A DNA stretch of 64,000 nucleotides, taken from Burkholderia pyrrocinia (GTDB lineage Bacteria > Pseudomonadota > Gammaproteobacteria > Burkholderiales > Burkholderiaceae). A model generated the notes under the pieces. That model saw only the letters and a program-made list of their open reading frames with translations. It had not been told where the DNA came from and made no database searches. The translations under genes and the position numbers were made by a program. Below, piece by piece: positions 39,181-64,000 of the stretch; position 1 is the stretch's first letter, and each line of letters begins with the position of its first letter. The stretch is from contig NZ_CP094461.1 in assembly GCF_022809715.1 (NCBI RefSeq), positions 930,001 to 994,000 of the forward strand, in the 5' to 3' direction.

Positions 39181-39480
39181 TTATTTACAAACCGCCACTA
39201 TTTCTCCGTCGGCAAAAGTTTGAGTTTCCCAAAGAGTAAATCGCGCACCCGGCTTCAATAAATCTCGAACCAAGTCAGGATAAAGAAACTTGATCGGAAC
39301 CTCAACTTCAACCCCTGCCTCAAGCCCGTGGCCAACCTGATCCAATAACAGACGACAATCAAACCCTTGACCCTCAATAAATAGCGGGCAGCCGTATCGA
39401 ACGGCAGGGATCGTTGACCTCCCGCACACTTGCGACGAGTACATGGTGACTCTTGCGATGATATCCGGCTGAATATTCAT
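39181..39480 (-). CDS. cdiI: Candidate immunity protein for the CdiA-like toxin
   Basis: A 99-residue soluble protein whose ATG overlaps the stop of the giant exoprotein gene (ATGA at 39477-39480), the standard arrangement for a CDI immunity gene. It contains three cysteines, is mildly acidic overall and ends in FTLWETQTFADGEIVAVCK. No family recognised. Low local G+C fits exchange of the toxin-immunity cassette. Assignment as immunity protein rests on position and size, not on sequence similarity. Confidence 0.75.
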   Translation of the reverse strand: MNIQPDIIARVTMYSSQVCGRSTIPAVRYGCPLFIEGQGFDCRLLLDQVGHGLEAGVEVEVPIKFLYPDLVRDLLKPGARFTLWETQTFADGEIVAVCK

Positions 39481-45400: not shown

Positions 45401-47639
45401 CTGCGTTGTCGACTTCGACGCCGCCGTTCAGGGCCACGTCGCGAGTTGCGGCGACCGTCGCGGTTTGCCCGCTATGAAGCGTCCCGGCAATAGTCGCATC
45501 CTGACCGGCATTGATGCTGATCGTGCCGGGGCTAGAGACCGCACCGGCCACCGCGACGTTACCTGCCGTCGAACCGATTTGTGCGTTGCCGCCGCTGTAG
45601 ACCGTGCCGCCCAGGCTAACACCCTGCTGGCCCGTTGCGCTCAATGTCCCGAGCGAGACCACATCACCGGTTGCCGTCAGCGAGCCGCTGTTAGCCCCCA
45701 GCGTCATGTTGCCGATCGATGCGGCCGTGCCCTGCACGTTGGTATTGCCACCCGACGTCACACTCAGGGTGCCGCCGCTGGTGACGTTCCCACCGACGGT
45801 CGTGTCCTGCCCCGCCTGAATCGTCACCGCGCCCGGCGCGGACACCGTGCCGCCGAAATTTGCGTTCGTGCCAGCCGTCGCACTGACCGTACTGCCACTC
45901 TGCACGGCACCGTCCAGCGCGATTGCCTGCGAAGCCTTCAGATCGACCGCGCCCTGCGACGACGTAACATTCCCCTGCCCGGTGATTGAGCCGCCTTGCG
46001 CTGCAATCGTCACCGGTCCTTGCGCCTGCACCGTGCCGCCAATTAAGGCGCTCTGACCCGCCGTCACCGACAGCACACCGTTCGATTGCGCGTTGCCGTT
46101 CACGGTTGCCGAGCCCGTTTGCGCGGTGATCGTGGTATCGCCGACACCCGACACCTGTCCGTTGACAGTCGCGTTGCGCGCGCCCGTCAGTGCGACCGTG
46201 CTGCCGCCCTGCACTGCCCCGTTGACCGTCAAGTCCCGTCCGGCCTTCGCCGACACCGTGCCGGGTGCGCTCAAGCCCCCGACCGTGAGATCGCCATTCG
46301 TCGTCTGCAGCGCGATATCGTGCGCCGACAGCGCCCCGATCGTCATCGACTGCCCGGCAGTCAGGCTGGCTGTACCGTTCGCTGCGACCGACGTGGCGTT
46401 CAGGTCGCCACCCGCCGTCATCGTGACGTTCTGGCCCGCCGACACCGCTCCCGGCGCGTTGATATCGCCGTTCGCGTTGACCGTATAGTTCTGGTTAGCG
46501 AGCCCCGTACCGTTGATGGTGGTGCTGCCCGCGCTGGTCAGCTTGACGTTCTGATTGGCGAACGTTTGACCGACCGACACGTCGCCGTTCGAATTGACCA
46601 CCACGTTGCCCGCCGTTGCCGACAACGGGCCTTGCGTGTTCACGCCCATCCCGGCCGCGGTCGACACGATGTAGACCGTGCCGCTCGTCACCGAGCCATA
46701 CTGGTTGGCATCCACGGCAATCGCGCTGCCGATCGCGGCGGCCGTGTTCGTCGCGCCGTTCGCCGACGTTCCATACGCTGTGCCACTCGTGCCGATAGAG
46801 GTCGGCGTGACGAGCTGGTTGCCGGTCACGACATTCACACGCTGATCCGCACGCAACGGAGCCGCCAAAGTCACACTTTGGCCGATGAGGTCGATATTGC
46901 CGACTGTACCTTCGATACCCGCACCTGGGCCATTCACCCCAGCCGGACCATTGATCGAAATGTTTCCCGACCGGACATCGTAAGAGACCGCACCAGCGTG
47001 GGCGAAATCGGTCGCAGTGCCTCCGACGCCAGTGAGAAACTGCGGCGTGCCCGTCGTCAGCGTTAGTCCCGGTACGTTCGTCAGCGCCATGCCGTTTACG
47101 GCAATACCGCCCGGCGCCGCCACGATGACGGCCGCCGGCGATCCGAAAACCTCGAGCGGCCCGTTCAGCGTCGCGATGTTGTTGGACGTGACCTGATTGA
47201 TGATGGTCGTCGCTGGCCGACCGTTCAGGTTCGGGTTGGCGCCAAGCGTACCGCCGAGCAGCGGCGTGCCTGCCACCGTGCTGTTATTGAGCACGAGGCC
47301 GCGCGACTCGACGTCGAAAGACTGGTACTGCCCAACGCTGATTCCGTTTGAGTTGGCACCCGGAATGTTGATCGCAGGCACGCCCGTGCTGGTCTGCGTG
47401 ATGGACGGCTGGAACGGAATCGGCGCACGCGGATCGACGATCGGCGCCGCGTGCGCGGTTTGGTCGGCGAGCAAGACAGCCGGACTGAAATACATCACGA
47501 CCGTCATCACCCACGCGGTCGCCTTGACCCAAAGCCCGTGCTCTTTGCTTTTCAACGAAGCATGGTCGAAGACAATCGTCTGCTTGGCCGTTCCCCGTTG
47601 AACGTGCCGTTTCTCGATATCGCGCATGACGCGGCGCAT
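39477..47639 (-). CDS. cdiA: CdiA-like contact-dependent toxin exoprotein (TpsA family)
   Basis: A 2720-residue secreted exoprotein. The extended signal region covers residues 1-65 (hydrophobic core AWVMTVVMYFSPAVLLA). A TPS domain follows with NPNL at 135-138, while the usual NPNGI motif is replaced by AAPGGI. Residues about 330-1900 are long filamentous-haemagglutinin beta-helix repeats (AGQxxTVxG-like units). A DUF637-like pretoxin region is rich in Ala/Gly (around LAHAALGCAAGAATGQGCGG) and ends at QNEALNNSG (residue about 2538). The C-terminal 106 residues (from TTTLYRAVGPAEL, nucleotides 39480-39797) are a distinct toxin candidate. A probable promoter lies just upstream. The reading frame is intact throughout. 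Confidence 0.9.
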   Translation of the reverse strand: MRRVMRDIEKRHVQRGTAKQTIVFDHASLKSKEHGLWVKATAWVMTVVMYFSPAVLLADQTAHAAPIVDPRAPIPFQPSITQTSTGVPAINIPGANSNGISVGQYQSFDVESRGLVLNNSTVAGTPLLGGTLGANPNLNGRPATTIINQVTSNNIATLNGPLEVFGSPAAVIVAAPGGIAVNGMALTNVPGLTLTTGTPQFLTGVGGTATDFAHAGAVSYDVRSGNISINGPAGVNGPGAGIEGTVGNIDLIGQSVTLAAPLRADQRVNVVTGNQLVTPTSIGTSGTAYGTSANGATNTAAAIGSAIAVDANQYGSVTSGTVYIVSTAAGMGVNTQGPLSATAGNVVVNSNGDVSVGQTFANQNVKLTSAGSTTINGTGLANQNYTVNANGDINAPGAVSAGQNVTMTAGGDLNATSVAANGTASLTAGQSMTIGALSAHDIALQTTNGDLTVGGLSAPGTVSAKAGRDLTVNGAVQGGSTVALTGARNATVNGQVSGVGDTTITAQTGSATVNGNAQSNGVLSVTAGQSALIGGTVQAQGPVTIAAQGGSITGQGNVTSSQGAVDLKASQAIALDGAVQSGSTVSATAGTNANFGGTVSAPGAVTIQAGQDTTVGGNVTSGGTLSVTSGGNTNVQGTAASIGNMTLGANSGSLTATGDVVSLGTLSATGQQGVSLGGTVYSGGNAQIGSTAGNVAVAGAVSSPGTISINAGQDATIAGTLHSGQTATVAATRDVALNGGVEVDNAGNANVTAGRDITGSGAMNVANDTTLNAGNNIAISGAIQTGNNLIATAGQNLAVGGATAVGNSTLTATNGSATLTGNVLSGGTTTLTAGTDVNAQGSVKSLGDLAVTAKSGSLTAGGPVSTGGNATLSAGQSMALNGQTTVSKDALLSATNITTQGVAIGGNLTANASNNLDTSAGQLNAPFDANAPALSVGGNASLSGAHVTTANAVVGGTTTITGTQSVTTGGTAAFKGGATLAGGTVTNVGTQLSGGNLAVSGSNVSNSGTLSSLGTSNVNAANLTNSGSIYGATTGLTVSGTTTNSGSLLATNALNLTTNALSNRNGLIFAGDVNNKTAPTGNVTVTVNGGNGTYDNTAGEILAQHDLTLNLPNQAFDPSAASAGTINLGNALTINAQQINNSGTWAMPGNSVALNTSQGLTNTGTISKAGDITLSTNGTLTNSGTISSGNNVNLSGTVVNQSGGTISANQDVNLAGVVTNAGTVSAVRDVNLSGSSYDNTGALTKAGRDLNASLSGDLVNVGGTISAQNNVTINAANVNNSRAGGNSTSTTTTTTDINTAGLGRELLASPMGTETLSTTYENIVSGLVSTDSATITARVGDLQPASATSMSAPDISGGTLYGVALPTVTRTTTTTQANGAAGVIAAGQDLSITTGTLNNHGSTISAGHDATLNVAALDNGGDAKVTTITDSIDAASYTAFLTQLKAAYTAGNLVVLPNTQFTTTANITPGQVSAPALQTSTITSYTSQDAGQIVAGNNLNLNGTGASLTNAGNLYAGQDLTIHANAFTNQGYHTSNVTSTVGCAAGVSDAQCGYHYGTQAFPSGFTYDRPGQAFSDAQQFMQLTYHSQSTIAFSYGPNNDSIGIFGDQISTQAYSYTQTNNTVFAGRDLTIAAPTVSNNYGNLLAGRDVVIGGAGTSRDNTDPTSPQTTLTQGASVTNSSGNIQAGRDIAMSTASLTNTLAAPQQVYQNYGTTARYGCSGAFQHYCDAFVDMQSGNASTISANRNLSISAGSVTNTGSLITAGNQATVTATSSVTNQDQTLNAYWHDGFWGGIVGGSPPPDNFGCGSSGTCSTLFGSAYQSNAGIQPPTPYKSLPGTIQAPSLTVAAGGAVQNSGNVMGQQVSVTGASLVNGLTSPNVYTPQPTASQQVIPLGPVGVPASASTAQNGANAVANSLIQSSIVAGAVSSGPSTAITSQTVGTPHNPAVPSATTPQGGTVQTIATANGTATYLINNPASQVIGGVGPSDLIANLPANLRPGSTLFYYDPFSENQLLQQAALAQTGTASFIDGLKYDNQHQKSVTDQEKSVLYGNAIAYAKANNIALGTALSSQQIASLDAPMLWYVEETVPEPGCTATGVASCPTVTALMPQVYLPQNYAVVQHDGTITGQDVSLVATNKGSITNTGTITATGTLSIDAGTVTNQQRSSDVGTIYTYMPDVMGLLTTTGTVTQQGGFMSAANYNLNVDRLDQVGGALQKLDPNGQVNASATADQLAALKSQLGGNFTQSTVSDNLHTSFQSLADSPGLFEQIGMAVTAVVASFITAGAASAFMVGGALAGTVGGSMISAGVGGFSASAISQASTGQFSLTAALEGGATGAITAGLTNGITYSPDAGVGWAGLGAPIGDNSLSALAGVKNVGGAIVPQAGASTATTFGQTALALGAEATIQAGVQTAIQGGSFLTNLRNSAVADVAAAAAYSIGNVANIPGSPIEVGTPGYWLAHAALGCAAGAATGQGCGGGAIGGAASAMIAPSLVNQFGGAGNLDQGGLAALSSIVMAASGGLAAIAGQNVQGAMTAGQNEALNNSGQKHPGVHPDETGGKHGLDLDVEKPVVQVVSDSSAQAAGSPKGAEPAKLTIGDGVLAAGLGGAGSTGGTTTLYRAVGPAELADIQATGTIRNLGSATGKYFTTSDAAASSYAKQAVTAFKDPPYTTITTQVPNSILNGIEPVTVDRGIPAYVIPNDLLKGLVPSIGSSMGIPGKK

Positions 47640-53737: not shown

Positions 53738-54108
53738 GGTCGATGTTCCAAATCAGGCGGTGAATGAGGCGCGCTACCGGGCCGGTACGGCAAGACCGGC
53801 CGGACCCGGGCGACGACGTGACCCATCGTAATGCCGCAATGGCCGGTTCCCGTTGTCATATCCGGCCCACATGGTGACAAAATCGGCCACGGATTACGTA
53901 GGCGCGGCCGGAAACGGTCGGGTGGATAAGGGTTTGGCCGGAGCCGGTTTCGATGAAAACGGTGAGCAATCGACGTGCCGGCCGATGAGGTCGAAGCGGC
54001 GCAGCATGCCGGCGGCAACGGGAGCCGGTTATGGGAATCGCCTATGGGAGCCGGCCATGGGAGCGAACGAAGGAAGCCGGTTATGGGAACCGGCTTGAAA
54101 AAAACGCG
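53738..54108. other. Intergenic region with a short tandem repeat
   Basis: A 370-bp gap between the AraC gene end and the acyl-CoA dehydrogenase start, both leftward, so it should hold the promoter of the dehydrogenase/ETF-QO/thiolase group. The right part carries the 26-bp repeat described separately. No RNA motif recognised. Confidence 0.5.
54020..54096. repeat. Three-copy 26-bp tandem repeat with a hairpin
   Basis: GGGAGCCGGTTATGGGA (54020-54036), GGGAGCCGGCCATGGGA (54046-54062) and GGAAGCCGGTTATGGGA (54072-54088) recur at a 26-bp period. The last copy overlaps a perfect 9-bp stem (AAGCCGGTT 54074-54082, AACCGGCTT 54088-54096) with a 5-base loop and an A-run on the plus strand. It lies just past the AraC stop. 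Confidence 0.7.
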
Positions 54109-55155
54109 CTACGCGCGCCGCCGATACGTCCCCGGCGTACTCCCCGTCCAGTGCCGGAACGCGCGATGAAACGCGCTCGGATCGTCGAAGCCGATATCGG
54201 CGCCGATCGCCGCGATCGTGTCGGGCGTGCCGATCAGCCGCTGGATCGCGATGTCGCGCCGCAGTTCGTCCTTGAGCGCCTGGAACGTCGTCCCTTCGGC
54301 GGCAAGATGGCGGCTCAGCGTGCGCACCGAGCAATGCAGGTGCTCGGCCGCCTGGTCGATCACGGGCAGGTCGGGCAGCGCCGCCGACAGGTATTGCCGC
54401 ACGCGATGGCACACGAGCTGTTCACTGAACGATTCGAAGATCCAGTCGCCGGGCGCGCGCGCGAGAAACTTGCGCAGGTTGCGCTTGCTCTGCCGGATCG
54501 GCGCATCGAGGTAGTCCGCGCTGAAGCGCATCAGCGTGCGCTCGCAGTCGAACTGCACGGAGCCGGTGAAGAAGTACAGGTGGTCGACCGCATGGCGCGG
54601 CCGCGGGCACGCGAACTCGATCCGCAGCAGCGGGATCTTCTGCCCGATCAGCCAGGAACACACGCCGTGCACGAGCTTGAGCATCAGCTCCTGGCCGAGC
54701 GCGCCGATCGGGCCGATGGCGTCGTTCGGGCGCAGCAGCACCTGCGCGACGAGACCGTCGCGCTTCGATTCGACGAAGAAGTCGTCGAGCAGGATATGGA
54801 AGAACTGGCCGAAGCGATGCAGCGCCGTTTCGAGGTTGCGCGCATCGAGCAGGCTCAGGCACAGATACTTCAGCGTGCCGCCGCGCAGCGGGCGCGAGAA
54901 GATGCCGGGCATCTCGTCGTCGAGGTCGATCGCGAGCGTGCGGTACAGCGTCGAGAACTGCTCCTCCGTCACGCGTGCATGCGGCTCGCCGAGCAGCTCG
55001 ATCGGAATGCCGGCCCCGCGCAGGTAGCGTTCGACCACGTCGCGCTGCGCACCCGCGCTCGCGAGGAAACCGTTGACGAGCGAGATCGGCACCGTCGCGC
55101 TCGGCGACGGCAGCGCACGCCCGGGCTGGGCGGAAAGTGAATCTGAGCCGGTCAT
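54109..55155 (-). CDS. AraC-family transcriptional regulator
   Basis: A regulator of 348 residues from ATG 55155, with an N-terminal effector domain of the arabinose-binding-like type found in OruR/ArgR-like AraC proteins (VPISLVNGFLASAGAQRDVV onward). The C-terminal double helix-turn-helix includes CSVRTLSRHLAAEGTTFQAL and IGFDDPSAFHRAFRHWTG, then STPGTYRRR. GGGGA precedes the 55155 ATG. An alternative ATG at 55269, overlapping the ligase stop, would add 38 basic low-complexity residues. It lies directly downstream of the acyl-CoA ligase gene and probably controls fatty-acid use genes. Confidence 0.9.
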   Translation of the reverse strand: MTGSDSLSAQPGRALPSPSATVPISLVNGFLASAGAQRDVVERYLRGAGIPIELLGEPHARVTEEQFSTLYRTLAIDLDDEMPGIFSRPLRGGTLKYLCLSLLDARNLETALHRFGQFFHILLDDFFVESKRDGLVAQVLLRPNDAIGPIGALGQELMLKLVHGVCSWLIGQKIPLLRIEFACPRPRHAVDHLYFFTGSVQFDCERTLMRFSADYLDAPIRQSKRNLRKFLARAPGDWIFESFSEQLVCHRVRQYLSAALPDLPVIDQAAEHLHCSVRTLSRHLAAEGTTFQALKDELRRDIAIQRLIGTPDTIAAIGADIGFDDPSAFHRAFRHWTGSTPGTYRRRA

Positions 55156-55268
55156 CGCGTCCCCGTCGATCGAACCGCTCGCATTGTACTTGAGCGGCCC
55201 GCGCGCCTGCTTCGGGGCCTTCGGCGCGCCGGGCCGCGCCGCCGCGGCCGTGCGGCGCTTCGGCGCCA

Positions 55269-56903
55269 TCAGTCGGTGCGGCTGAGTTCCCGGCGCAGGA
55301 TCTTGCCGACCGTCGACTTCGGCAGCCGGTCGACAAAGCGGACGAGCTTCGGCACCTTGTAGGCCGCGAGGCTCTCGCGGCAATGCGCGACGAGCTGCGC
55401 CTCCGTCACGTCGGCATCCGGCGCCGGCACCACGAACAGCTTGACGGCCTCGCCGGTGCGCGCGTCCGGCACGCCGATGCATGCGCATTCGGCGACGCCC
55501 GGCAGCGCGGTCGCGACGGCTTCCACCTCGTTCGGGTACACGTTGAAGCCCGACACGATGATCATGTCCTTCTTGCGGTCGACGATCCGCAGGAAGCCGG
55601 CTGCGTCGAACACGCCGACGTCGCCGGTGCGGAAATAGCCGTCCGCCGTGAACGCGGCCGTATTCGCTTCCGGCTTCTGCCAGTAGCCGGTCATCACCTG
55701 CGGCCCCTTCACGCAGATCTCGCCCGCTTCGCCGATCGCGGCCTCGCGATCCTGGTCGTCGAGCAGCTTCACGTCGGTCGACGGCAGCGGCAGGCCGGTG
55801 CTGCCCGTGAATGCGTCGATCGACTGCGGGTTGAACGACACGACCGGCGACGTTTCCGACAGTCCGTAGCCCTCGCGGATGAAGTTGCCCGTCACCGCCT
55901 TCCAGCGCGACGAGATCACGTCGATCACCGCCGCGCCGCCGCCGGCCGACAGCTTCAGCCGCGACCAGTCGACTTCCTTCAGGCGCGGATGGCCGGCGAG
56001 CCCCGCGTACAGCGTGTTCACGCCGACGAACACGGTCGGCCGCGCGGCCTTCAGCACGTCGATGAACGCGTCCATGTCGCGCGGGTTCGCGACGAGCCAG
56101 TTCTGCGCGCCGATCGCGAAGTAGGACAGGAAGTTCACCGTCAGCGCGAAGATGTGGTACAGCGGGATCGCGGTGACGACGACTTCCTCGCCCGGCACCC
56201 GCGCGTCCGCCACGATCGCCGCGAACTGTTCGATGTTCGCGACGAGGTTGCGGTGCGACAGCGCGGCGCCCTTCGACAATCCGGTCGTGCCGCCCGTGTA
56301 TTGCAGCAGCAGCAGGTCCGCGCCGCCCAGCGCGGCCGGCTCGCACGCGAGCGATTCGCCTGCGGCGATCGCGTCCGCGAGCGCGATCGAACCGGGCGGC
56401 AGCGCGTCGCACGCACCGGCCGGCGCATCGACCACGCCCAGATCGCCGCGCCCCACGCTCAGCACGGTGCGCACGCGCGTGCCGCCGACCACGTCGGCGA
56501 ACGTGCCCATCGACCCGCCGCACACCACGGCGACCTCGACGCCAGCGTCGTTGAGCTGATGCTCGAGCTCGCGCGCGGTGTAGTGCGGGTTCACGTTGAC
56601 CTGGATCGCGCCGATCCTTGCGACGGCGACGAACACGACAGGAAACGCGAGCACGTTGGGCAGCATCACGGCCACGCGATCGCCCTTGCGCACGCCGACG
56701 ACCTGCTGCAGATACGCGGCCAGCGCGCTCGACAGGCGGTCGACATCGGCATAGGTCAGCGTGCGGCCGAACGCATGGAACGCGGGACGATCGGCGAAGC
56801 GGCGCATCGCGTCGTCCAGCAGCGCGCTGACGGAAGGATGGCGATCGGCGTCGATCTCGGCGGGGATCGAGCCATACGACCCGGTCCAGTGTCTCTTGCT
56901 CAT
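55269..56903 (-). CDS. Acyl-CoA ligase (FadD-like AMP-forming)
   Basis: A 544-residue adenylate-forming ligase from ATG 56903. The P-loop LQYTGGTTGLSKGA, the adenine region GYGLSETSPVV, the hinge YFRTGDVG...GFLRIVDRKKDMIIVSGFNV, and the C-terminal catalytic lysine in KSTVGKILRREL are all intact. It activates a fatty or related acid to its CoA thioester for beta-oxidation. The N-terminal frame extension to 57014 lacks family features. It is followed within one base by the AraC frame, so the two are coupled if the longer AraC start is used. Confidence 0.93.
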   Translation of the reverse strand: MSKRHWTGSYGSIPAEIDADRHPSVSALLDDAMRRFADRPAFHAFGRTLTYADVDRLSSALAAYLQQVVGVRKGDRVAVMLPNVLAFPVVFVAVARIGAIQVNVNPHYTARELEHQLNDAGVEVAVVCGGSMGTFADVVGGTRVRTVLSVGRGDLGVVDAPAGACDALPPGSIALADAIAAGESLACEPAALGGADLLLLQYTGGTTGLSKGAALSHRNLVANIEQFAAIVADARVPGEEVVVTAIPLYHIFALTVNFLSYFAIGAQNWLVANPRDMDAFIDVLKAARPTVFVGVNTLYAGLAGHPRLKEVDWSRLKLSAGGGAAVIDVISSRWKAVTGNFIREGYGLSETSPVVSFNPQSIDAFTGSTGLPLPSTDVKLLDDQDREAAIGEAGEICVKGPQVMTGYWQKPEANTAAFTADGYFRTGDVGVFDAAGFLRIVDRKKDMIIVSGFNVYPNEVEAVATALPGVAECACIGVPDARTGEAVKLFVVPAPDADVTEAQLVAHCRESLAAYKVPKLVRFVDRLPKSTVGKILRRELSRTD

Positions 56904-57382
56904 ATAGGTATCCTTGTGCGGCCGCACACGTCGCCGGGGGCGGCCGAGGGCAGCCAGTCGAGCGTCGACTATCGCTCGGCGGCCGTGCTTTGCAAATGAT
57001 CGGCGCGACCGCAAAGATGATCGAAACGGACATGTGGGTCGTTCGCGCGCTTTACCGCGCAGGACGCAACGCCCTGCCGCGTGTCGCGGTCACTTCGTTC
57101 GTGACACATCCTCGCGATGGGTTTTCGATGCAATGCGCGCACGTGCCACGCAAGACGGCGGCAATTTGAATGCACTTGATTCAGATGATTTCCACTTCGT
57201 CAATATCGAACGATCCGCTCGAGGCATTCACGATGCACTACAACGGCTTTCTGATTTCCTGCCCGGCGGACGACTGCGCGGTCCGGAATGTTGCAAAAGG
57301 TCAGGCGCATTAAACCTCGGCACGATTGCGCCATCGGAAAACGAAATCCATTCGATCTAATTCACCGCCATACATTCTGATA

Positions 57383-57411
57383 TTGACGAAACAAATCTTC
57401 ACCATTAGAAT
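57383..57411 (+). promoter_or_regulatory. Sigma-70 promoter for the lipid-modification operon
   Basis: TTGACG (57383-57388), a 17-base spacer and TAGAAT (57406-57411) form a near-consensus promoter pointing right. Transcription would begin near 57418, giving a leader of about 345 nt before the first large operon gene and including a 51-codon ORF with its own ribosome site. Confidence 0.65.
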
Positions 57412-57441
57412 AATCCCACTACTCTAAAACCGAGAGGCCAC

Positions 57442-57597
57442 ATGGGTTTTCATACCCAATCGATTGTTCGCAGAGGCCGCGAACCAATTGATTTTTCTTC
57501 GATGCCGCAGCACGGCAACTCAACTGGGGACTTCCGAGACGGCTTTCGCACCGCGCTTCATGGCGGGGCGCGCATTTACTCGGCTGATCAAAGTTAA
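57442..57597 (+). CDS. 51-codon leader ORF
   Basis: An ORF from ATG 57442 to TAA 57595-57597, with GAGAGG five bases upstream and located within the transcript predicted from the 57383-57411 promoter. The peptide begins MGFHTQSIVRRGREPIDF and is polar, without signal sequence or cysteines. No family recognised. It could be a small protein or a leader peptide; codon use is not informative at this length. Confidence 0.35.
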   Translation: MGFHTQSIVRRGREPIDFSSMPQHGNSTGDFRDGFRTALHGGARIYSADQS

Positions 57598-57762
57598 TCA
57601 TCGCATTTCACTTTTTGCGTTATCAATCGATCGCAGCTTTGCGTATCGAGTTGAGATCAACGCCGTATTCCTGCGCGCGACGGGATGTCACCGGGTCGAG
57701 CAAGGGCTTGACGGCGCGGATTCGTGATTGCGTGGATAACATGCGTTTTAGCTGCGTCACTT

Positions 57763-57945
57763 ATGTTTTGCATCTGCTCCAATAAATCCATCGACGAAAT
57801 CGTCGCCGCCCAGGCGGATATCCCCTTGCCATTCACGGAAATGCTCGAATGCTATTCGTCGTGCCTGGACGGCTGTGGCTCGTGTATCCCGGTGCTTCGC
57901 GAGCGCGTCACCGGAAATGAATTGCTGCTTACCGAAGGTGATTAA
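57763..57945 (+). CDS. Bfd-like [2Fe-2S] ferredoxin-type protein
   Basis: A 60-residue protein from ATG 57763. Cys3 and Cys5 (MFCIC) with Cys38 and Cys41 (DGCGSC) match the CxC...CxxC ligand pattern of bacterioferritin-associated ferredoxin (Bfd) domains. Two further cysteines (30 and 34) lie just before. A GTG at 57724 would add a hydrophobic MIAWITCVLAASL leader. It is followed three bases later by a di-iron enzyme gene, so it is probably the electron donor to that enzyme or to the desaturase of the same operon, rather than an iron-mobilising Bfd. Confidence 0.75.
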   Translation: MFCICSNKSIDEIVAAQADIPLPFTEMLECYSSCLDGCGSCIPVLRERVTGNELLLTEGD

Positions 57946-57948
57946 GGG

Positions 57949-58782
57949 ATGCTTTATCCAGGTTTATTCGAAAGTCTCGAGCGCGCTCGCTGGGATTTGT
58001 GCACCGATGTCCCTTGGGGGGATTTCAATCCGGGCAAGGTGACGGAACGCCACCTGCACGGCATCAAGATGAACGCCATCCTCGAATGGTCGGCCATGCC
58101 AACCGCCGAGATGTTCCTGCGAGACAATCAGGAAGACACCGATTTCTCGGCGTTCATCTCCATCTGGTTCTTCGAGGAACAAAAGCACAGCCTCGTCTTG
58201 ATGGAGTATTTGCGTCGCTTCGCGCCGGATTTCGTGCCGACGGAGTCCGAGTTGGGGTCCGTACGGTTCTCGTTCGACACGGCACCCGCACTGGACAGTC
58301 TCGCCTTGCACTTTTGCGGCGAGGTGCGCCTGAACAACTGGTATCGATGCGCGAGGGAATACCACAGCGAGCCCGTCATCCGCGCAATCTATCAATTACT
58401 GGCCAACGATGAAGCCCGGCATGCGCGTGCATACTATTCCTATATGCAGCGCGCCATCGCACATCATCCCGACGCCGCAAGGCGCGCGTTTTCGAAGATC
58501 GGCGTCCTGATGACGAACCCGCGCATGAACCGGGCGATGCATCCGACGAATCTGCACGTCAACAAGACCCTGTTCCCCAATGACACCGTGAACGGTCGGT
58601 TGCCCGATCCGGAATGGCTTGGTCAATGGTTGGACGGTGAAATTCGTTTCACAGCAGACTGGGAAACGAAGGTGGAGCGCGGGATACTGTCCAATCTTTC
58701 CTCGCTGCTGAACGAGCCGTTCGACACGCCGCACGCACTTCGCAAGTATCAGAAATCGCTGGTCGCCCACGACCCGCATTGA
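57949..58782 (+). CDS. Di-iron ferritin-like protein related to acyl-ACP desaturases
   Basis: A 277-residue, largely helical soluble protein. Two carboxylate/histidine motifs on paired helices, WFFEEQKHSLVLME and LANDEARHARAYYSYM, and intervening glutamates (EWSAMPTAEMF, FCGEVRLNNWYR) give the four-helix di-iron site of acyl-ACP-desaturase-like oxygenases. Such enzymes desaturate, hydroxylate or otherwise oxidise acyl chains bound to ACP, drawing electrons from a ferredoxin. The genes for a small [2Fe-2S] protein upstream and an ACP downstream fit this. Exact chemistry is unknown. Confidence 0.78.
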   Translation: MLYPGLFESLERARWDLCTDVPWGDFNPGKVTERHLHGIKMNAILEWSAMPTAEMFLRDNQEDTDFSAFISIWFFEEQKHSLVLMEYLRRFAPDFVPTESELGSVRFSFDTAPALDSLALHFCGEVRLNNWYRCAREYHSEPVIRAIYQLLANDEARHARAYYSYMQRAIAHHPDAARRAFSKIGVLMTNPRMNRAMHPTNLHVNKTLFPNDTVNGRLPDPEWLGQWLDGEIRFTADWETKVERGILSNLSSLLNEPFDTPHALRKYQKSLVAHDPH

Positions 58783-58798
58783 ACAGAAAAGAGTGATC

Positions 58799-59671
58799 AT
58801 GGCCAGCAAGGCAGACATCGCATACCACTATGATGTTGATAATTCGTTATACGAACTTATCCTCGATAAACGATATCGTGCGTATAGCTGCGCGGTTTGG
58901 GACGGCGTATCGACGCTCGAAGAAGCGCAGCATCAGAAACTGGCCCGTTTGAGCCGCTTCGCCGGGATCTCGTCGGGACAGGCAGTGCTCGATATCGGCT
59001 GCGGATGGGGTGGCATGATGCAGCATGCACTCGCCGACGCCGGGGCTGCGTCCGCGGTCGGCGTAACCTTGAGCGAAGACCAGTATCGCTTCGTGTCGGA
59101 TCTGAACGATCCGCGGATCGAAGTGAAGCTTACGTCGTGGAAGGATTACGCCCCCTCGTGCAAATTCGATGCACTGGTCTCGATTGGCGCCTTCGAACAC
59201 TTCGCGTCGCTGAACGATCGGGATGCCGGTCAGCATCGCAGTGTCTATACCGAGTTCTTCCAGTGGTGTCGCTCCGTGTCGACCGATCACGCCCGCTTGG
59301 GGCTGCAGACCATCGTGACATTGCGCATGCCGAGGAATCTGCAAGAAGTGCGCGACACGCGATACCTGCTCGAACGCGTATTCCCAGGCTCGGCGCTGCC
59401 CGCGATCAGCGATATCCAGGCTGGCGTCCAGGATGCCTACGAAATAGTCGAGGCAAGGCAGATCGGCCTGGATTATGCGCGAACACTGGTCAACTGGCGT
59501 GAGCGGCTGGTCCGTCATCGCAGCGAAATCGAAGCCCGCTTCGGAACGGAGATATACGCGCACTACGATCGCTACTTTCTGGCAGCGGAAAGCAGCTTTC
59601 GTGCAGGAATCGTCGGCTTGGTCCAGATGAGCCTGAGTCCCGTGCAGAAGATGGTTGTCTTTCGCCGATGA
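58799..59671 (+). CDS. Cyclopropane-fatty-acid-synthase-like SAM methyltransferase
   Basis: A 290-residue methyltransferase of the CFA/mycolic-acid cyclopropane synthase family, without the N-terminal domain of E. coli Cfa and so nearer the mycobacterial CmaA length. Family start AYHYDVDNSLYELILD and YSCAVWDG; SAM motif I VLDIGCGWGGMMQHA; GVTLSEDQYRF; and SIGAFEHFA, where the family has its conserved glutamate. It adds a methylene or methyl group from SAM to a double bond of an acyl chain. In this operon it could act on an ACP-bound or phospholipid-bound unsaturated acyl group made by the desaturases. The next gene overlaps its stop. Confidence 0.85.
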   Translation: MASKADIAYHYDVDNSLYELILDKRYRAYSCAVWDGVSTLEEAQHQKLARLSRFAGISSGQAVLDIGCGWGGMMQHALADAGAASAVGVTLSEDQYRFVSDLNDPRIEVKLTSWKDYAPSCKFDALVSIGAFEHFASLNDRDAGQHRSVYTEFFQWCRSVSTDHARLGLQTIVTLRMPRNLQEVRDTRYLLERVFPGSALPAISDIQAGVQDAYEIVEARQIGLDYARTLVNWRERLVRHRSEIEARFGTEIYAHYDRYFLAAESSFRAGIVGLVQMSLSPVQKMVVFRR

Positions 59672-60129
59672 GTCGCGCCGCGTTCGCAGACCAGCCGTCA
59701 GGGCTCGCGGTCGAGCTGGAGTTCCGCCCGTTGCCTTACGAGGTCGACTTCACCGGCTTCGTCAGCAATACCGTCGCGCCGCGCTGGATGGAGGCCCTTC
59801 GCGTCACCCTCATGGCGCGCTGCTGTCCGGAATTCGATTGCGGTGCACCGGAGCACCTGTCGGTCATAGCCGAGACCCACGTCAAGTACTTGAAACCCGT
59901 CCGCTACGGCGATGTGCTCCGCGGGCGCGCCTGGGTCGAATCCGCTTCCTATTCACGGTGGGTCGTCGCTTTCGCTTTCATGTGTACCGACAGTGACGAA
60001 GCGTTGCTGCAAGCGACGCAGCATGGCGCCTTCATTCATCCGCTCACCTTGACACCCATACGCATACCGCGGTCCGTTCGCGAAGCGATCGCCACCGTTC
60101 AAGCCGTACCTTCAACCCACCGAGCCTAA
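59668..60129 (+). CDS. Hotdog-fold acyl thioesterase (YbgC/FcoT-like)
   Basis: A 153-residue single hotdog-domain protein. VDFTGFVSNTVAPRWMEALR aligns with the catalytic loop and long helix of 4-hydroxybenzoyl-CoA-thioesterase-like enzymes, followed by the YLKPVRYGDVLRGRAWVES strand pair. It starts within the stop of the methyltransferase gene (ATGA) and ends two bases before the ACP gene. A role in releasing the modified acyl chain from the ACP, or in loading it, is a reasonable inference. Confidence 0.8.
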   Translation: MSRAAFADQPSGLAVELEFRPLPYEVDFTGFVSNTVAPRWMEALRVTLMARCCPEFDCGAPEHLSVIAETHVKYLKPVRYGDVLRGRAWVESASYSRWVVAFAFMCTDSDEALLQATQHGAFIHPLTLTPIRIPRSVREAIATVQAVPSTHRA

Positions 60130-60131
60130 GC

Positions 60132-60395
60132 ATGTCCAATCAATCCATTCTGGAAAAAGTTCAAATCATCGTCGCGCATGCGCTGGACGTCGCACCGGCC
60201 GACGTATCGCCAGGAAAGTCCTTCCGTCGCGACTTCAGGGCGGACTCGCTCGACAGCGTCGAAATCATCATGGCCATCGAAGACGATTTCGGGATCGAGT
60301 TCGACCAGGATACGGCAGCCCACATCGATACGGTCGGCGAACTCGTCAACGCGATCGAGCACGTTCAAGCGCGAAAGTGCGATGCTTCGGCATAA
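60132..60395 (+). CDS. Acyl carrier protein
   Basis: An 87-residue acidic ACP. The phosphopantetheine attachment serine is Ser39 in ADSLDSVEIIMAIEDDFGI, the canonical DSL motif, with the preceding KSFRRDFR slightly more basic than in the housekeeping ACP. A dedicated second ACP within a lipid-enzyme operon implies that intermediates are carried as ACP thioesters. It overlaps the desaturase gene by 14 bp. Confidence 0.93.
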   Translation: MSNQSILEKVQIIVAHALDVAPADVSPGKSFRRDFRADSLDSVEIIMAIEDDFGIEFDQDTAAHIDTVGELVNAIEHVQARKCDASA

Positions 60396-61347
60396 GCAAA
60401 AAGCCGAAATGATGCAGACGTCTGGAATTCAGCGCGCCGAACGCCTCGGCATAGTCAAATTCCGCGTATGGCTGCTGCATGCGGCATCGCTGGCCATATT
60501 CGTCGTCCCGTTCACGTGGGGCCTGGCGGCCGCGGCAATCATCGGCTTCTTCATACGCGTATTCGCCTGGGAGGGAGGCTCACACCGATATTTCTCGCAT
60601 CGCGCCTTCAGTACGTCGCGTGCGTTTCAGCTGGTGCTTGCGTTGCTCGCCGCCGCCGGCGGGCAACGTGGGCCGATCTGGTGGGCTGCGCATCATAGGG
60701 AGCATCACCGACACTCGGACCAGCCAGGCGATCCTCACTCCCCGGTCCAGCGCGGCTTCTGGTATGCGCATGTCGGCTGGGTGCTCGATCAGGACAAACT
60801 CGACACCGATCTCGACGGTGCGAAGGATCTTGCTCGCTTTCCGGAGTTGGTATGGGTCAACAAATATCACTACTTGTTTCCCTACCTTCTGCTCGTCGGC
60901 ATTTTCCTGCTCGGCCAATACACCGCAGTGTTCGGGCGCACCGGCCTCGGTATGAGCGCGGTCGTCTGGGTCTTCTTTCTGAGCACGTTGTTATCGCTGC
61001 ACGCCACGTTCGTCGTCAACACGCTAACGCATGCCCGCAAGCCGGGCTGGATCAATCAGCGCCGTTTCGACACGCCCGATACCACGACCAATTCGTGGCT
61101 GCTCGCGATCCCGACGATGGGCGCATCGTGGCACAACAATCACCATCGCTATATGAACTCGGCGCGCGCGGGCTTCTATTGGTGGGAACTGGATCTGACG
61201 TACTGCGTGCTGCGCCTGCTCGCGGTGATCGGCATTATCTGGGACCTTCATCCCGTTCCGCCCAAAGTGCTGCATGAAGGGAAGCTCGGCGTCGCCGAGG
61301 CGGCACTCGAACGCACATCGCAAAGCAAATACGGAAAGCAACGATGA
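60382..61347 (+). CDS. Membrane fatty-acid desaturase (delta-9 acyl-CoA/acyl-ACP type)
   Basis: A 321-residue integral membrane desaturase from ATG 60382 (an ATG at 60409 is an alternative). All three histidine boxes are intact: HRYFSH (68-73), HHREHHRHSD (104-113) and HNNHH (251-255), arranged as in delta-9 acyl-CoA desaturases, with paired hydrophobic spans between them. It introduces a cis double bond using O2 and an electron donor, perhaps the small [2Fe-2S] protein of the operon. The product could be the substrate of the cyclopropane-synthase-like enzyme. Confidence 0.9.
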   Translation: MLRHKQKAEMMQTSGIQRAERLGIVKFRVWLLHAASLAIFVVPFTWGLAAAAIIGFFIRVFAWEGGSHRYFSHRAFSTSRAFQLVLALLAAAGGQRGPIWWAAHHREHHRHSDQPGDPHSPVQRGFWYAHVGWVLDQDKLDTDLDGAKDLARFPELVWVNKYHYLFPYLLLVGIFLLGQYTAVFGRTGLGMSAVVWVFFLSTLLSLHATFVVNTLTHARKPGWINQRRFDTPDTTTNSWLLAIPTMGASWHNNHHRYMNSARAGFYWWELDLTYCVLRLLAVIGIIWDLHPVPPKVLHEGKLGVAEAALERTSQSKYGKQR

Positions 61348-62225
61348 TCAACGATGTCACGCTGGCTGGAAGTCCACTCGCCATCAAGCTCTACGTCCAT
61401 CTACTTAGGGGCGCCTTCCGGCTTCTACAACCGATCGGCCCGGGCCTCGCAGCGAGGCTCGCGCTCAAGATCTTTCTCACGCCGCCCGCGACCAGGGCGA
61501 GCCGCTGGGAACGGAAGTTCGAACAAGAGGGTACGCTCGATTTCGTAACGATCGGCAATAAGCGCTTGCGCGTGCTGACTCACGGCACCGGCGACAAGAC
61601 CATCCTGCTTGTTCATGGATGGGGAAGTCGCGGCACCCATCTCGGCAGCTATGCCGACGCGCTCTCGAAGCAAGGCTACCGCGTTTGTACGATGGATGGC
61701 CCCGCGCACGGGCAATCGACGGGCAAGGGTACCGACATGATGGAGTTCGCACAGGCAATCGCCGCGGTTTCGGCCCACGTCGGGGGCGTCGATATCGTCG
61801 TAGGCCACTCCTTCGGAGCGGCTTGCACGCTGTTGTCGATCAGCAGGTTCGGCCTCGCCGCGACGAAGCTGGTGCTGATCAGCTGCTTTTCCGACGCCGT
61901 ATTCATCACCGACTCTTTCGCGCGATTTTTCCGGATAAAGGCGTCTGTCATTCACGCAATGCGCGTACGACTCGAACGGCGACATCGGAATGCGTGGCGT
62001 TGGGACCAGATAGCGCCGGCGCGACTGATCCGTGGCTTCGATCGGCCGATACTGTTGATTCATGACGAGGACGACGACGAGGTGCCGTTCCGACAGGCGC
62101 AGGAACTCCATTCGAACCACATCGACGCAAGGCTTTTCTCGACACGGAAACAGGGCCACCGGAAGATCTTGCGCGACAAGACCGGCATTGCGGCCACGCT
62201 GGCCTTTCTGAACGAAGTCGCGTAG
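61344..62225 (+). CDS. Alpha/beta hydrolase
   Basis: A 293-residue alpha/beta-hydrolase-fold protein whose ATG overlaps the desaturase stop. The oxyanion region is LLVHGWGSRG, the nucleophile elbow VVGHSFGAA, the acid HDEDDDEVPF and the catalytic histidine KQGHRKI. A hydrophobic N-terminal 45 residues (LAIKLYVHLLRGAFRLLQ) may associate with the membrane. It could hydrolyse or transfer the finished acyl chain. Specificity cannot be predicted. Confidence 0.85.
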   Translation: MINDVTLAGSPLAIKLYVHLLRGAFRLLQPIGPGLAARLALKIFLTPPATRASRWERKFEQEGTLDFVTIGNKRLRVLTHGTGDKTILLVHGWGSRGTHLGSYADALSKQGYRVCTMDGPAHGQSTGKGTDMMEFAQAIAAVSAHVGGVDIVVGHSFGAACTLLSISRFGLAATKLVLISCFSDAVFITDSFARFFRIKASVIHAMRVRLERRHRNAWRWDQIAPARLIRGFDRPILLIHDEDDDEVPFRQAQELHSNHIDARLFSTRKQGHRKILRDKTGIAATLAFLNEVA

Positions 62226-62277
62226 CCTCGTCGCGATTCTTCACTGCGGAAGCGCATCACCTCGATCTTCTTGCTCT

Positions 62278-63027
62278 ATGTTGACGCTATATAAATACGC
62301 GCTTGGTCCGATCCTGCTGCTTCAGGCGAGCTGGTTGCGCCGAACCGCGCTGCGCCTGCCCGAGGCCAACGGTCCCCGCGGGGGGGCCGAGGGCGCGGAT
62401 GATGGCTCGACGGAGCCCTTGCGCATTCTGGTGGTCGGCGATTCGTCGGCGGCAGGCGTGGGCGTGGACGAGCAGGAGCATGCACTGGCGCAGCCGGTTG
62501 CACGGCTCCTGGCACGCGCCACGGGCCGGCGGGTCGAATGGCAACTGATCGCGAAGTCCGGAGTCAATACGGAGGAGGCGTTGAAGCTGTTGACGGGCAG
62601 CAAGATCGGGCCGGCCGATTATCTCGTCACGGCACTCGGCACGAACGACGTCACGTCACAGCGCAAGCCGGGGCAATTCATCCGCGACTATATCGCGCTC
62701 GCGGATCATCTCGGACTGCACACCGGCGCCGCCGGCATCGTCGTGACAGGGTTGCCGCCGTTGCACATCCTGCCGGCCGCACCGCATCCGCTGCGGTGGT
62801 ACCTCGGCCGCTACGCCGTTCGACTCGATCGGGCCTTGCAGCGCTGGGCCGACCTCCATCCCGCGCGACGCTACGTGTCGCTCGAGTGGGCCGCGAATCC
62901 CGCCGAGATGGCAATCGATCGGTACCATCCCGGGCCGAATCAATATCGTCGATGGGCCGAACTCGTCACCGAGAAAATTCTGACGTTGCTCGGCGAGACG
63001 AACGCGCCTTTACACGCGGGAAAGTAG
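62278..63027 (+). CDS. SGNH/GDSL-type lipase or esterase
   Basis: A 249-residue SGNH hydrolase. Block I reads ILVVGDSSAAGVG (the nucleophile serine follows GD), the oxyanion residues lie in LGTNDVTSQ, and the catalytic pair is DRYHPG near the C-terminus. The N-terminal 25 residues (LYKYALGPILLLQASWL) are hydrophobic and may be an uncleaved anchor. It follows the alpha/beta hydrolase by 52 bp and is the last gene of the operon. Possible role: ester formation or hydrolysis of the modified lipid. Confidence 0.83.
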   Translation: MLTLYKYALGPILLLQASWLRRTALRLPEANGPRGGAEGADDGSTEPLRILVVGDSSAAGVGVDEQEHALAQPVARLLARATGRRVEWQLIAKSGVNTEEALKLLTGSKIGPADYLVTALGTNDVTSQRKPGQFIRDYIALADHLGLHTGAAGIVVTGLPPLHILPAAPHPLRWYLGRYAVRLDRALQRWADLHPARRYVSLEWAANPAEMAIDRYHPGPNQYRRWAELVTEKILTLLGETNAPLHAGK

Positions 63028-63130
63028 TCGACATCGGCCAGTACGGATCGCCGGAGGGCGATTCAGTCACGTTGCCCGATTGCGTTGCCCCTGCCAGGTG
63101 TACGGACAACTGCCGGCGGGCGGCCGCACT

Positions 63131-63144
63131 CAGGGTGAACCCTG
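63131..63144. repeat. Short inverted repeat after the SGNH gene
   Basis: CAGGGT-GA-ACCCTG is a perfect inverted repeat with 6-bp arms and a 2-base centre, between the SGNH gene and the AraC regulator. No T-tract follows, so an operator is at least as likely as a terminator. Confidence 0.35.
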
Positions 63145-63223
63145 TGGCGACCCGGCGCATTCAGAGGCAGAATCGCGTACCCGGAACCGGTATCGAACCG
63201 GACTCAAGACTCAGGATTCGCTC

Positions 63224-64000
63224 ATGCTGCGCGATGCGCTGTTGAAACCGGCGGATTCACGGCGCTCAGGCGATCGGTCGCCCGGCGCCGCGCTGCCCGT
63301 CATGCTGCGCGAGAAGTGCTTCTCGCCGGCCAAGCTCGCGGTCCTGCTGCAGGTCGCGTCGGACCTGGGGCTCGACACCGGCGCGGTGCTGGCGGGAACC
63401 GATCTCGATCCCGCTGCGGTCGCCGATCCGTTCACGGTGACGTCGTCGCAGCAATTCCTGACCGCCGCGGGCAACGCGATCCGCGCATATGGCAATCCGG
63501 ACCTCGGCGTGCGGGTCGGGCGCCGGCTACACGCGTCGAGCTACGGGATGTACGGCTACGCGATGCTGTGCTCGGAATCGATGGCCCACGCGTTCGACTC
63601 GGCAGTCAAATATCACCAGCTCGCGAACCGCATGCTCGAGATTCGCTGGGTCGTGCAGGACGACACGGTGTCATGGCTGTTTCCCGATCGGGAAACCCTG
63701 CCGCTGCCCTGCCTCGACGAGTCGCTGTACCGCTTCCTGATCGACATGCAGTTCGCGCTGCACGTGACGATCATCAAGGATGTGATGGGTGCGTGGTGCG
63801 TGCCGGCGCGCGCACAGTTCACGCAGCCGGAGCCGCCGCATGCGGCGTTGCTGTCCGACGCGCTCGAATGCCCTCTCGCGTTCGGCCAGCCGCGCAACGT
63901 GCTCGACTACCCGGCTGCGTGGCTCGCGCGCGCGCCGCAGCTCGCGAATCCGATCACGGCCGCGCAGGTATCGTCGCACTGCGCGCAGTTGCTCGACGAA
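63224..64000 (+). CDS. AraC-family regulator, N-terminal part (runs off right edge)
   Basis: An open frame of 259 codons from ATG 63224 to the window end, with AGGA about eight bases upstream. It encodes the N-terminal effector domain of an OruR/ArgR-like AraC regulator (arabinose-binding-like fold): KLAVLLQVASDLGLDTGAVL, LGVRVGRRLHASSYGMYGYA, and YPAAWLARAPQLANPITAA at the usual position just before the DNA-binding domain. The helix-turn-helix region lies beyond the window. It follows the lipid-modification operon by about 200 bp and could regulate it, but may belong with genes to the right. Confidence 0.85.
   Translation, partial: MLRDALLKPADSRRSGDRSPGAALPVMLREKCFSPAKLAVLLQVASDLGLDTGAVLAGTDLDPAAVADPFTVTSSQQFLTAAGNAIRAYGNPDLGVRVGRRLHASSYGMYGYAMLCSESMAHAFDSAVKYHQLANRMLEIRWVVQDDTVSWLFPDRETLPLPCLDESLYRFLIDMQFALHVTIIKDVMGAWCVPARAQFTQPEPPHAALLSDALECPLAFGQPRNVLDYPAAWLARAPQLANPITAAQVSSHCAQLLDE

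Follow-up and report, generated by a model that had tools for sequence, protein, structure and literature searches.

What is made by the eight adjacent genes of Burkholderia pyrrocinia that encode a Bfd-like [2Fe-2S] protein, a soluble di-iron protein, a cyclopropane-synthase-like (CMAS-like) methyltransferase, a hotdog-fold thioesterase, an acyl carrier protein (ACP), a membrane desaturase, an alpha/beta hydrolase and an SGNH hydrolase? The genes lie in the window, a 64,000-nucleotide stretch of contig NZ_CP094461.1 (positions 930,001 to 994,000). A preliminary description of this DNA proposed an uncharacterised ACP-dependent pathway of fatty-acid modification, and that overall interpretation is partly supported. 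The eight-gene set is a conserved unit, beyond chance, and the operon is rare in the sampled genomes and patchy over several families. It is read here, with about even confidence, as a horizontally moving fatty-acid-editing operon for desaturation, one-carbon addition, hydrolytic release and lipase exchange with membrane lipid, probably on ACP.

Conservation was followed from the methyltransferase, whose alignment was scanned against 84,980 species genomes and gave 294 stretches with 238 relatives. Among the best 80 of these 238, which were kept, 21 are at least 47% identical to the methyltransferase, and none of the remaining 59 exceeds 40%. For six of these closer relatives, at least five operon genes lie in one cluster: Paraburkholderia rhizosphaerae (L050), a Thiobacillus metagenome-assembled genome (MAG; L051), Dyella monticola (L052), Hydrogenophaga intermedia (L053), Dyella flava (L054) and a betaproteobacterial MAG (L060). 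The earlier claim of one linked unit, rather than genes unlinked in relatives, is upheld by these six genomes. As for the remaining 15 contigs, some stop near the methyltransferase, and others (e.g., Methylotenera) hold it without the operon genes. When the best 120 methyltransferase matches were compared with 119 di-iron matches (one of 120 di-iron entries was dropped), 22 contigs, matched on length, were common to both, while six shifted lists gave 0, 0, 0, 1, 1 and 2. Equal contig sizes suggest, without proving that the contig is the same, that the methyltransferase and di-iron genes are co-located. Chance linkage of the operon genes was rejected on this excess together with the six further clustered genomes.

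All seven operons, the window included, share a constant core of Bfd-like, di-iron, CMAS-like and alpha/beta hydrolase genes. Bfd stands first in all of them, followed by di-iron and CMAS, by hotdog and ACP if these are encoded, and by the hydrolase; a hotdog gene is found in six of the seven and an ACP gene in five. An operon-type membrane desaturase occurs in three, standing before the hydrolase in the window and in L051 (two copies) and after it in L053, and L052 has a distant desaturase. A lipase lies in or beside every operon, from one of two unrelated families. The SGNH type is found in the window, L050 and L051, following the hydrolase gene in the latter two; a patatin is found in L060 (PF01734), with homologues 46-53% identical in L052, L053 and L054, placed about 1 kb downstream in L053 and on the opposite strand in L054. 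Separately, in two Bradyrhizobium loci a CMAS gene is closely preceded by di-iron gene fragments spread over several frames, which are apparent operon remnants.

The eight open reading frames of the window (Table 1) are intact and on the plus strand, with starts picked by orthologue comparison. The families claimed for these adjacent genes were borne out by domain matches and, for the Bfd-like protein, by its cysteine spacing. Five proteins (CMAS-like, thioesterase, ACP, membrane desaturase and alpha/beta hydrolase) match both Pfam and NCBIfam, and the di-iron protein and SGNH hydrolase match Pfam alone. Gene junctions, in order, are +3, +16, -4, +2, +16 (-14 if the desaturase begins at 60382), -4 and +52 nucleotides. 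Thus, the described tight spacing or overlap holds for the first seven genes but not for the SGNH gene, which is 52 nucleotides off and stands alone in B. stagnalis. A sigma-70-like site at 57383, the first position of the stretch described at the outset, gained no support, as three such sites were found in the region versus 2.2 expected from shuffles.

Table 1. Coordinates of the operon genes, their site and other loci discussed (window positions unless a locus, L, is named)
Feature	Position	Strand	Remarks
Bfd-like [2Fe-2S] protein, 60 aa	57763..57945	+	CxC-x32-CxxC; no Pfam or NCBIfam match
Soluble di-iron acyl-ACP-desaturase-like protein (AfcD homologue), 277 aa	57949..58782	+	PF03405
Cyclopropane-synthase-like SAM (S-adenosylmethionine) methyltransferase (CMAS-like), 290 aa	58799..59671	+	PF02353
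Hotdog-fold thioesterase, 153 aa	59668..60129	+	4HBT, DFTG motif
ACP, 87 aa	60132..60395	+	PP-binding, TIGR00517, DSL serine
Three-histidine-box membrane desaturase	60412..61347 (alternative start 60382)	+	PF00487, His boxes
Alpha/beta hydrolase, 293 aa	61344..62225	+	Abhydrolase_6, GHSFG
SGNH/GDSL hydrolase, 249 aa	62278..63027	+	Lipase_GDSL_2; GDS, GTND, DxxH
Variable gene-content site, third replicon	57033-63120		compared loci L150, L151, L152, L153
FadD-like ligase	55269-57014	-	best with long-chain acyl-CoA ligase models, scores under their cut-offs
Chromosome-1-type di-iron/patatin pair	L025 9482-10360 and 10837-12063		own chromosome 1; pair also in L032, L013, L015, L016, L017, L020
AfcD-like genes in caryoynencin-like clusters	L028 9668-10546; L029 9713-10582		P450 gene after it in L028
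Di-iron gene fragments, Bradyrhizobium	L056 9306-9967; L059 1788-2508		just upstream of CMAS gene
PRK08788 crotonase, Thiotrichales MAG	L055 275-1141		directly upstream of CMAS gene
Crotonase by AfcD-like gene, Methylibium plasmid RPME01	L023 10291-12843
Open frames with two-partner secretion (TPS) domain, 678 and 2720 aa	36594-38627; 39480-47639	-	two-partner secretion exoprotein type

The operon's rarity is seen at three taxonomic levels, in overlapping genome samples that each count the window's own genome. At E 1e-40, the methyltransferase matches 13 of 398 family genomes, same-genus Burkholderia genomes included; two matches are of operon type, namely, the window's own and one in another genus (72%), and the other 11 are at most 39% identical. 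This outcome runs against the expectation of a gene order conserved in Burkholderia. The methyltransferase at E 1e-70 is found in 1 of 399 order genomes. Of 369 class genomes, one encodes an operon-type di-iron protein at E 1e-118, a limit that keeps out AfcD-like copies and may also miss distant operon members. Database proteins do show operon-type copies within Burkholderia (B. ubonensis strains, 94-95% identical), as well as in Paraburkholderia jirisanensis (71-83%), with relatives in Ralstonia, Achromobacter and Curvibacter, all known from proteins alone.

In the B. cepacia complex, the operon occupies a variable site on the third replicon, with FadD/AraC genes conserved on one side and an AraC gene on the other. 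In B. multivorans, the whole site is replaced by about 50 bp, and one B. pyrrocinia carries a HAD hydrolase gene there and another a transporter-protein gene. In B. stagnalis, the alignment resumes at about window position 62182, i.e., the final 44 nucleotides of the hydrolase gene, and the SGNH gene is kept alone (protein 91% identical), which looks like loss of the rest of the operon with SGNH left behind. The G+C content of the seven genes from Bfd to hydrolase is 0.55-0.63, against 0.66 for the SGNH gene, 0.65 for the whole window and 0.69 for the FadD gene. On the basis of the patchy distribution, the low G+C composition and the empty sites, we infer that the operon moves laterally. The FadD-like ligase was rejected as a ninth member, since B. 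stagnalis, B. multivorans and two B. pyrrocinia, which are without the operon, keep it in place together with the AraC genes of either side. A FadD-like neighbour (E <1e-10) was not seen in the examined flanks of the other six operons. The FadD-like and AraC genes are regarded as backbone because they persist while the content of the site varies.

The Bfd-like protein keeps CxC-x32-CxxC, a spacing that fits the Bfd-type [2Fe-2S] pattern, in all seven operons, and its orthologues are 47-69% identical. The adjoining di-iron protein scores 32 bits against FA_desaturase_2 (PF03405, cut-off 22.7), covering residues 133-184 only, and matches no PDB sequence below E 0.7. Acyl-ACP desaturases bind their iron through the pattern Glu, GluxxHis, Glu, GluxxHis; these ligands are invariant in 40 of 40 sequences, and the predicted model has the acyl-ACP desaturase fold, with plant acyl-ACP desaturases as the best match. 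Ligand pattern and predicted fold agree and support, as the preliminary description had it, an acyl-ACP-desaturase-type enzyme. The N-oxygenase AurF is marked by an extra His four residues ahead of the Glu of the second ExxH. Neither the sequence mark nor the score speaks for AurF: the position, residue 151, is Leu in the window protein and nearly invariant in the 40 sequences, and the Pfam AurF score of 28.4 bits is under the cut-off of 29.6. PF11583 is present in many of the listed di-iron relatives.

The di-iron protein is 59% identical to AfcD (L022), whose gene ends about 620 nucleotides before a LysR gene, matching the reported afcD-shvR layout, and 62% identical to the product of a gene within a caryoynencin-like cluster. 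Near-full-length relatives are found in 60 of 65 Burkholderia genomes. In the di-iron tree, the window protein and AfcD lie on opposite sides of a fully supported split. The operon label is not confined to one side of any branch (5 changes), and database rows of unknown context mix in; as operon labels also intermix with other rows in the CMAS tree, claims from both trees are restricted to the larger splits. Three arrangements of AfcD-like genes were observed elsewhere. The chromosome-1-type gene adjoins a patatin-like gene in all seven loci checked, the genes in caryoynencin-like clusters adjoin a thioesterase-like gene, and the gene on Methylibium plasmid RPME01 lies by a haem-oxygenase-like protein as well as a crotonase.

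The third enzyme is a CMAS protein (197 bits against PF02353), as had been described. This METHYLTRANSFERASE corresponds to just the latter portion of Cfa: it matches PRK11705 from profile position 118 on, at 168 bits versus a cut-off of 400, and the N-terminal part of Cfa (PRK11705 positions 1-117) is not present. In the PDB it is related to mycolic acid methyltransferases and to Cfa. All 111 aligned rows keep Glu135 and Tyr228; where the aligned mycobacterial enzymes and the Cfa-like protein of the same genome have His, 109 of the rows have Gln and one has Glu; all three positions are presumably active-site residues. Because it recurs in so many rows, the Gln marks a broad subfamily, and it was rejected as an operon-specific mark. 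In a 40-row CMAS tree, which carries a long-branch warning, the operon copies fall in a 23-row clade (100/99, long branch), and relatives from other loci, among them actinobacterial and cyanobacterial ones, lie apart. This clade also holds stand-alone Methylophilaceae, Bradyrhizobium, Ralstonia and other copies, and the operon label is not confined to one branch side (5 changes), with stand-alone, remnant and unknown-context copies mixed in. Among the other CMAS-family matches of the genome, a chromosome 1 protein (344 bits) looks like the regular Cfa, and a weak match scores 27 bits. In ten actinobacterial loci (L071, L075, L081, L084, L103, L105, L110, L119, L120 and L122), a CMAS relative comes immediately after an ACP-like match, and ACP-bound methylation may thus occur elsewhere too.

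The motifs of the thioesterase, hydrolase and ACP look intact, in line with their original assignment. The hotdog protein, for which a search gave 26 relatives, matches PDB sequences weakly (E 0.0013-0.019); its DFTG motif is found in five of six operon hotdog proteins, that of L052 being missed by the pattern used. The ACP scores above the TIGR00517 cut-off, and the DSL serine is present in five operon ACPs and in L066. The alpha/beta hydrolase motif GHSFG occurs in six of seven operons, the L060 protein being without a match to that pattern. The hydrolase, 31% identical to the CayF-like protein of L028, is a distant homologue of this CayF-like thioesterase. The SGNH motifs GDS, GTND and DxxH are present in three of three SGNH proteins and the patatin motifs in four of four operon patatins; the SGNH hydrolase has no PDB sequence match. 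The window membrane desaturase has the His boxes HRYFSH, HHREHH and HNNHH, and such boxes were found in four operon-type desaturases. In a 42-row tree, which came with a long-branch warning, it forms a group of 5 rows (97/91) together with the remaining operon desaturases and a single stand-alone gene, beside desaturases of other Burkholderiales. A kinship with JamB/CayB was not supported, as the protein lies outside the CayB/CayC-like group.

A pathway can be proposed from the gene set, its conservation, the enzyme families, the ligand motifs and the predicted fold. The soluble di-iron protein would insert a cis double bond into an acyl chain, with the Bfd-like protein as its putative dedicated electron donor. 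The chain would most likely be held on ACP, with AcpP serving in operons that have no ACP gene. Next, the CMAS-type enzyme would add a methylene bridge or methyl branch from SAM at the double bond, and the membrane desaturase may add more unsaturation in some operon versions. The hotdog thioesterase and alpha/beta hydrolase would then free the chain, and the SGNH or patatin lipase would swap it with membrane lipid. Four points make ACP the likeliest carrier: the fold of the desaturase, the presence of an ACP gene, the lack of Cfa's N-terminal part and the mycobacterial parallel in the accessible text of PMC12845086.

A more specific version is held tentatively, with somewhat less than even confidence: the portable pathway may be undescribed so far and may do in Gram-negative bacteria, in compact form, what meromycolate modification does in mycobacteria. 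An AfcD-type acyl-ACP desaturase with a dedicated Bfd-type ferredoxin, and a CMAS methyltransferase directed to ACP, would build an unsaturated fatty acid of a new kind, with a cyclopropane ring or a methyl branch, for release or for placing in lipid. If the proposed editing pathway holds, the operon would offer a complete set of enzymes that can be expressed to make unusual fatty acids, a candidate for the electron donor of soluble acyl-ACP desaturases in bacteria, and a route to the function of the AfcD family.

Several observations limit the case for an ACP-bound chain. No hotdog gene was found in the P. rhizosphaerae operon and no ACP gene in the two Dyella operons, and the lipase at all seven operons and the patatin beside the chromosome-1-type di-iron paralogue at all seven loci point toward membrane lipid. 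Because of these lipases, a less likely alternative is retained in which the CMAS enzyme and desaturases act on phospholipid chains, the hydrolases and lipase deacylate and recycle them, and ACP merely supplies new chains, the product being an altered membrane (e.g., for stress). The stand-alone Methylophilaceae CMAS relatives are consistent with this membrane remodelling, as is the furan fatty acid pathway, begun by a cfa-like methyltransferase and followed in phospholipid chains in the available part of PMC7380195. In contrast, the CMAS enzyme is without the N-terminal part of Cfa, an ACP gene (5/7) and two thioesterase/hydrolase genes exceed what remodelling needs, and the predicted di-iron model is closest to acyl-ACP desaturases.

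Two further products have been considered. Release of an antimicrobial akin to polyyne and afc products, in the form of a fatty acid that is acetylenic, conjugated or bears a cyclopropane, would fit the resemblance of the di-iron protein to AfcD and the caryoynencin-like cluster protein, that of the hydrolase to the CayF-like thioesterase, and the rare, patchy occurrence at a variable site. However, Pfam and NCBIfam profiles found neither a fatty acyl-AMP ligase, as already noted in the preliminary description, nor an exporter- or resistance-like gene among the eight, and with a membrane desaturase outside the CayB/CayC-like group this natural product is improbable. Still further from likely is a signal molecule, i.e., a DSF (diffusible signal factor)-like unsaturated fatty acid with a methyl or cyclopropane group. 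It is suggested by RpfF-related crotonases, one of PRK08788 type (over cut-off) directly upstream of CMAS in a Thiotrichales MAG and another by the AfcD-like gene of plasmid RPME01, but both (164 and 172 bits) are far under the RpfF equivalog cut-off of 550 bits. No crotonase is among the eight window genes by Pfam, the flanks of the other six operons not having been searched for one.

Elsewhere in the window, two minus-strand open frames carry a TPS secretion domain (Table 1).

Compared with known systems, the locus belongs to none of the polyyne, afc and plain cfa types, since defining features of each failed. The afc (AFC-BC11) cluster of the B. cepacia complex has in common a di-iron acyl-ACP-desaturase homologue (AfcD), whereas its fatty acyl-AMP ligase, adenylation enzyme, citrate synthase and KAS-III (ketoacyl-ACP synthase III) have no counterpart among the eight genes. 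The accessible text of PMC12186527 describes afc with ligase AfcA, carrier AfcK, adenylation enzyme AfcQ and citrate synthase AfcS; of these types, ACP alone accompanies the AfcD homologue in 57763-63027, AfcK itself not having been compared. Published accounts, as far as accessible, disagree on AfcD within the cluster. The polyyne clusters (caryoynencin cay and protegencin pgn) are alike in ACP, membrane desaturase and alpha/beta-hydrolase thioesterase, and two Burkholderia cay-like loci include an AfcD-like gene, as does the operon, although the available part of PMC8406139 does not count it among seven common polyyne genes. In contrast to these clusters, the operon has no JamA-type ligase, one membrane desaturase instead of three, and that one outside their CayB/CayC-like group, and an extra CMAS methyltransferase. 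A rubredoxin pattern was unmatched in 54000-64000 but also in two control cay-like loci.

The furan fatty acid pathway (UfaM/UfaD/UfaO), compared by description only, likewise pairs a cfa-like methyltransferase with desaturation; in the available text of PMC7380195, this enzyme can yield a methyl branch instead of a ring, the pathway is followed in phospholipid chains, and ACP or thioesterase is not described. Cfa shares the CMAS domain with conserved Glu and Tyr and differs in its N-terminal part and in the His that is Gln here; together with the gene set, these failed features bear out the view that the locus is more than a simple cfa gene. No description of the gene set was found in the open full-text literature (judged by title and abstract start, with subscription papers mostly outside), consistent with the prior statement that no named pathway has this set. 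In mycobacteria, the meromycolate modification genes are dispersed. They encode DesA1/DesA2, AcpM and CMAS methyltransferases, while the operon is a single compact unit with a Bfd-like protein and lipases and without mycolic acid machinery among its eight genes. Known enzyme families are joined here in a conserved, patchily spread combination that is apparently undescribed so far.

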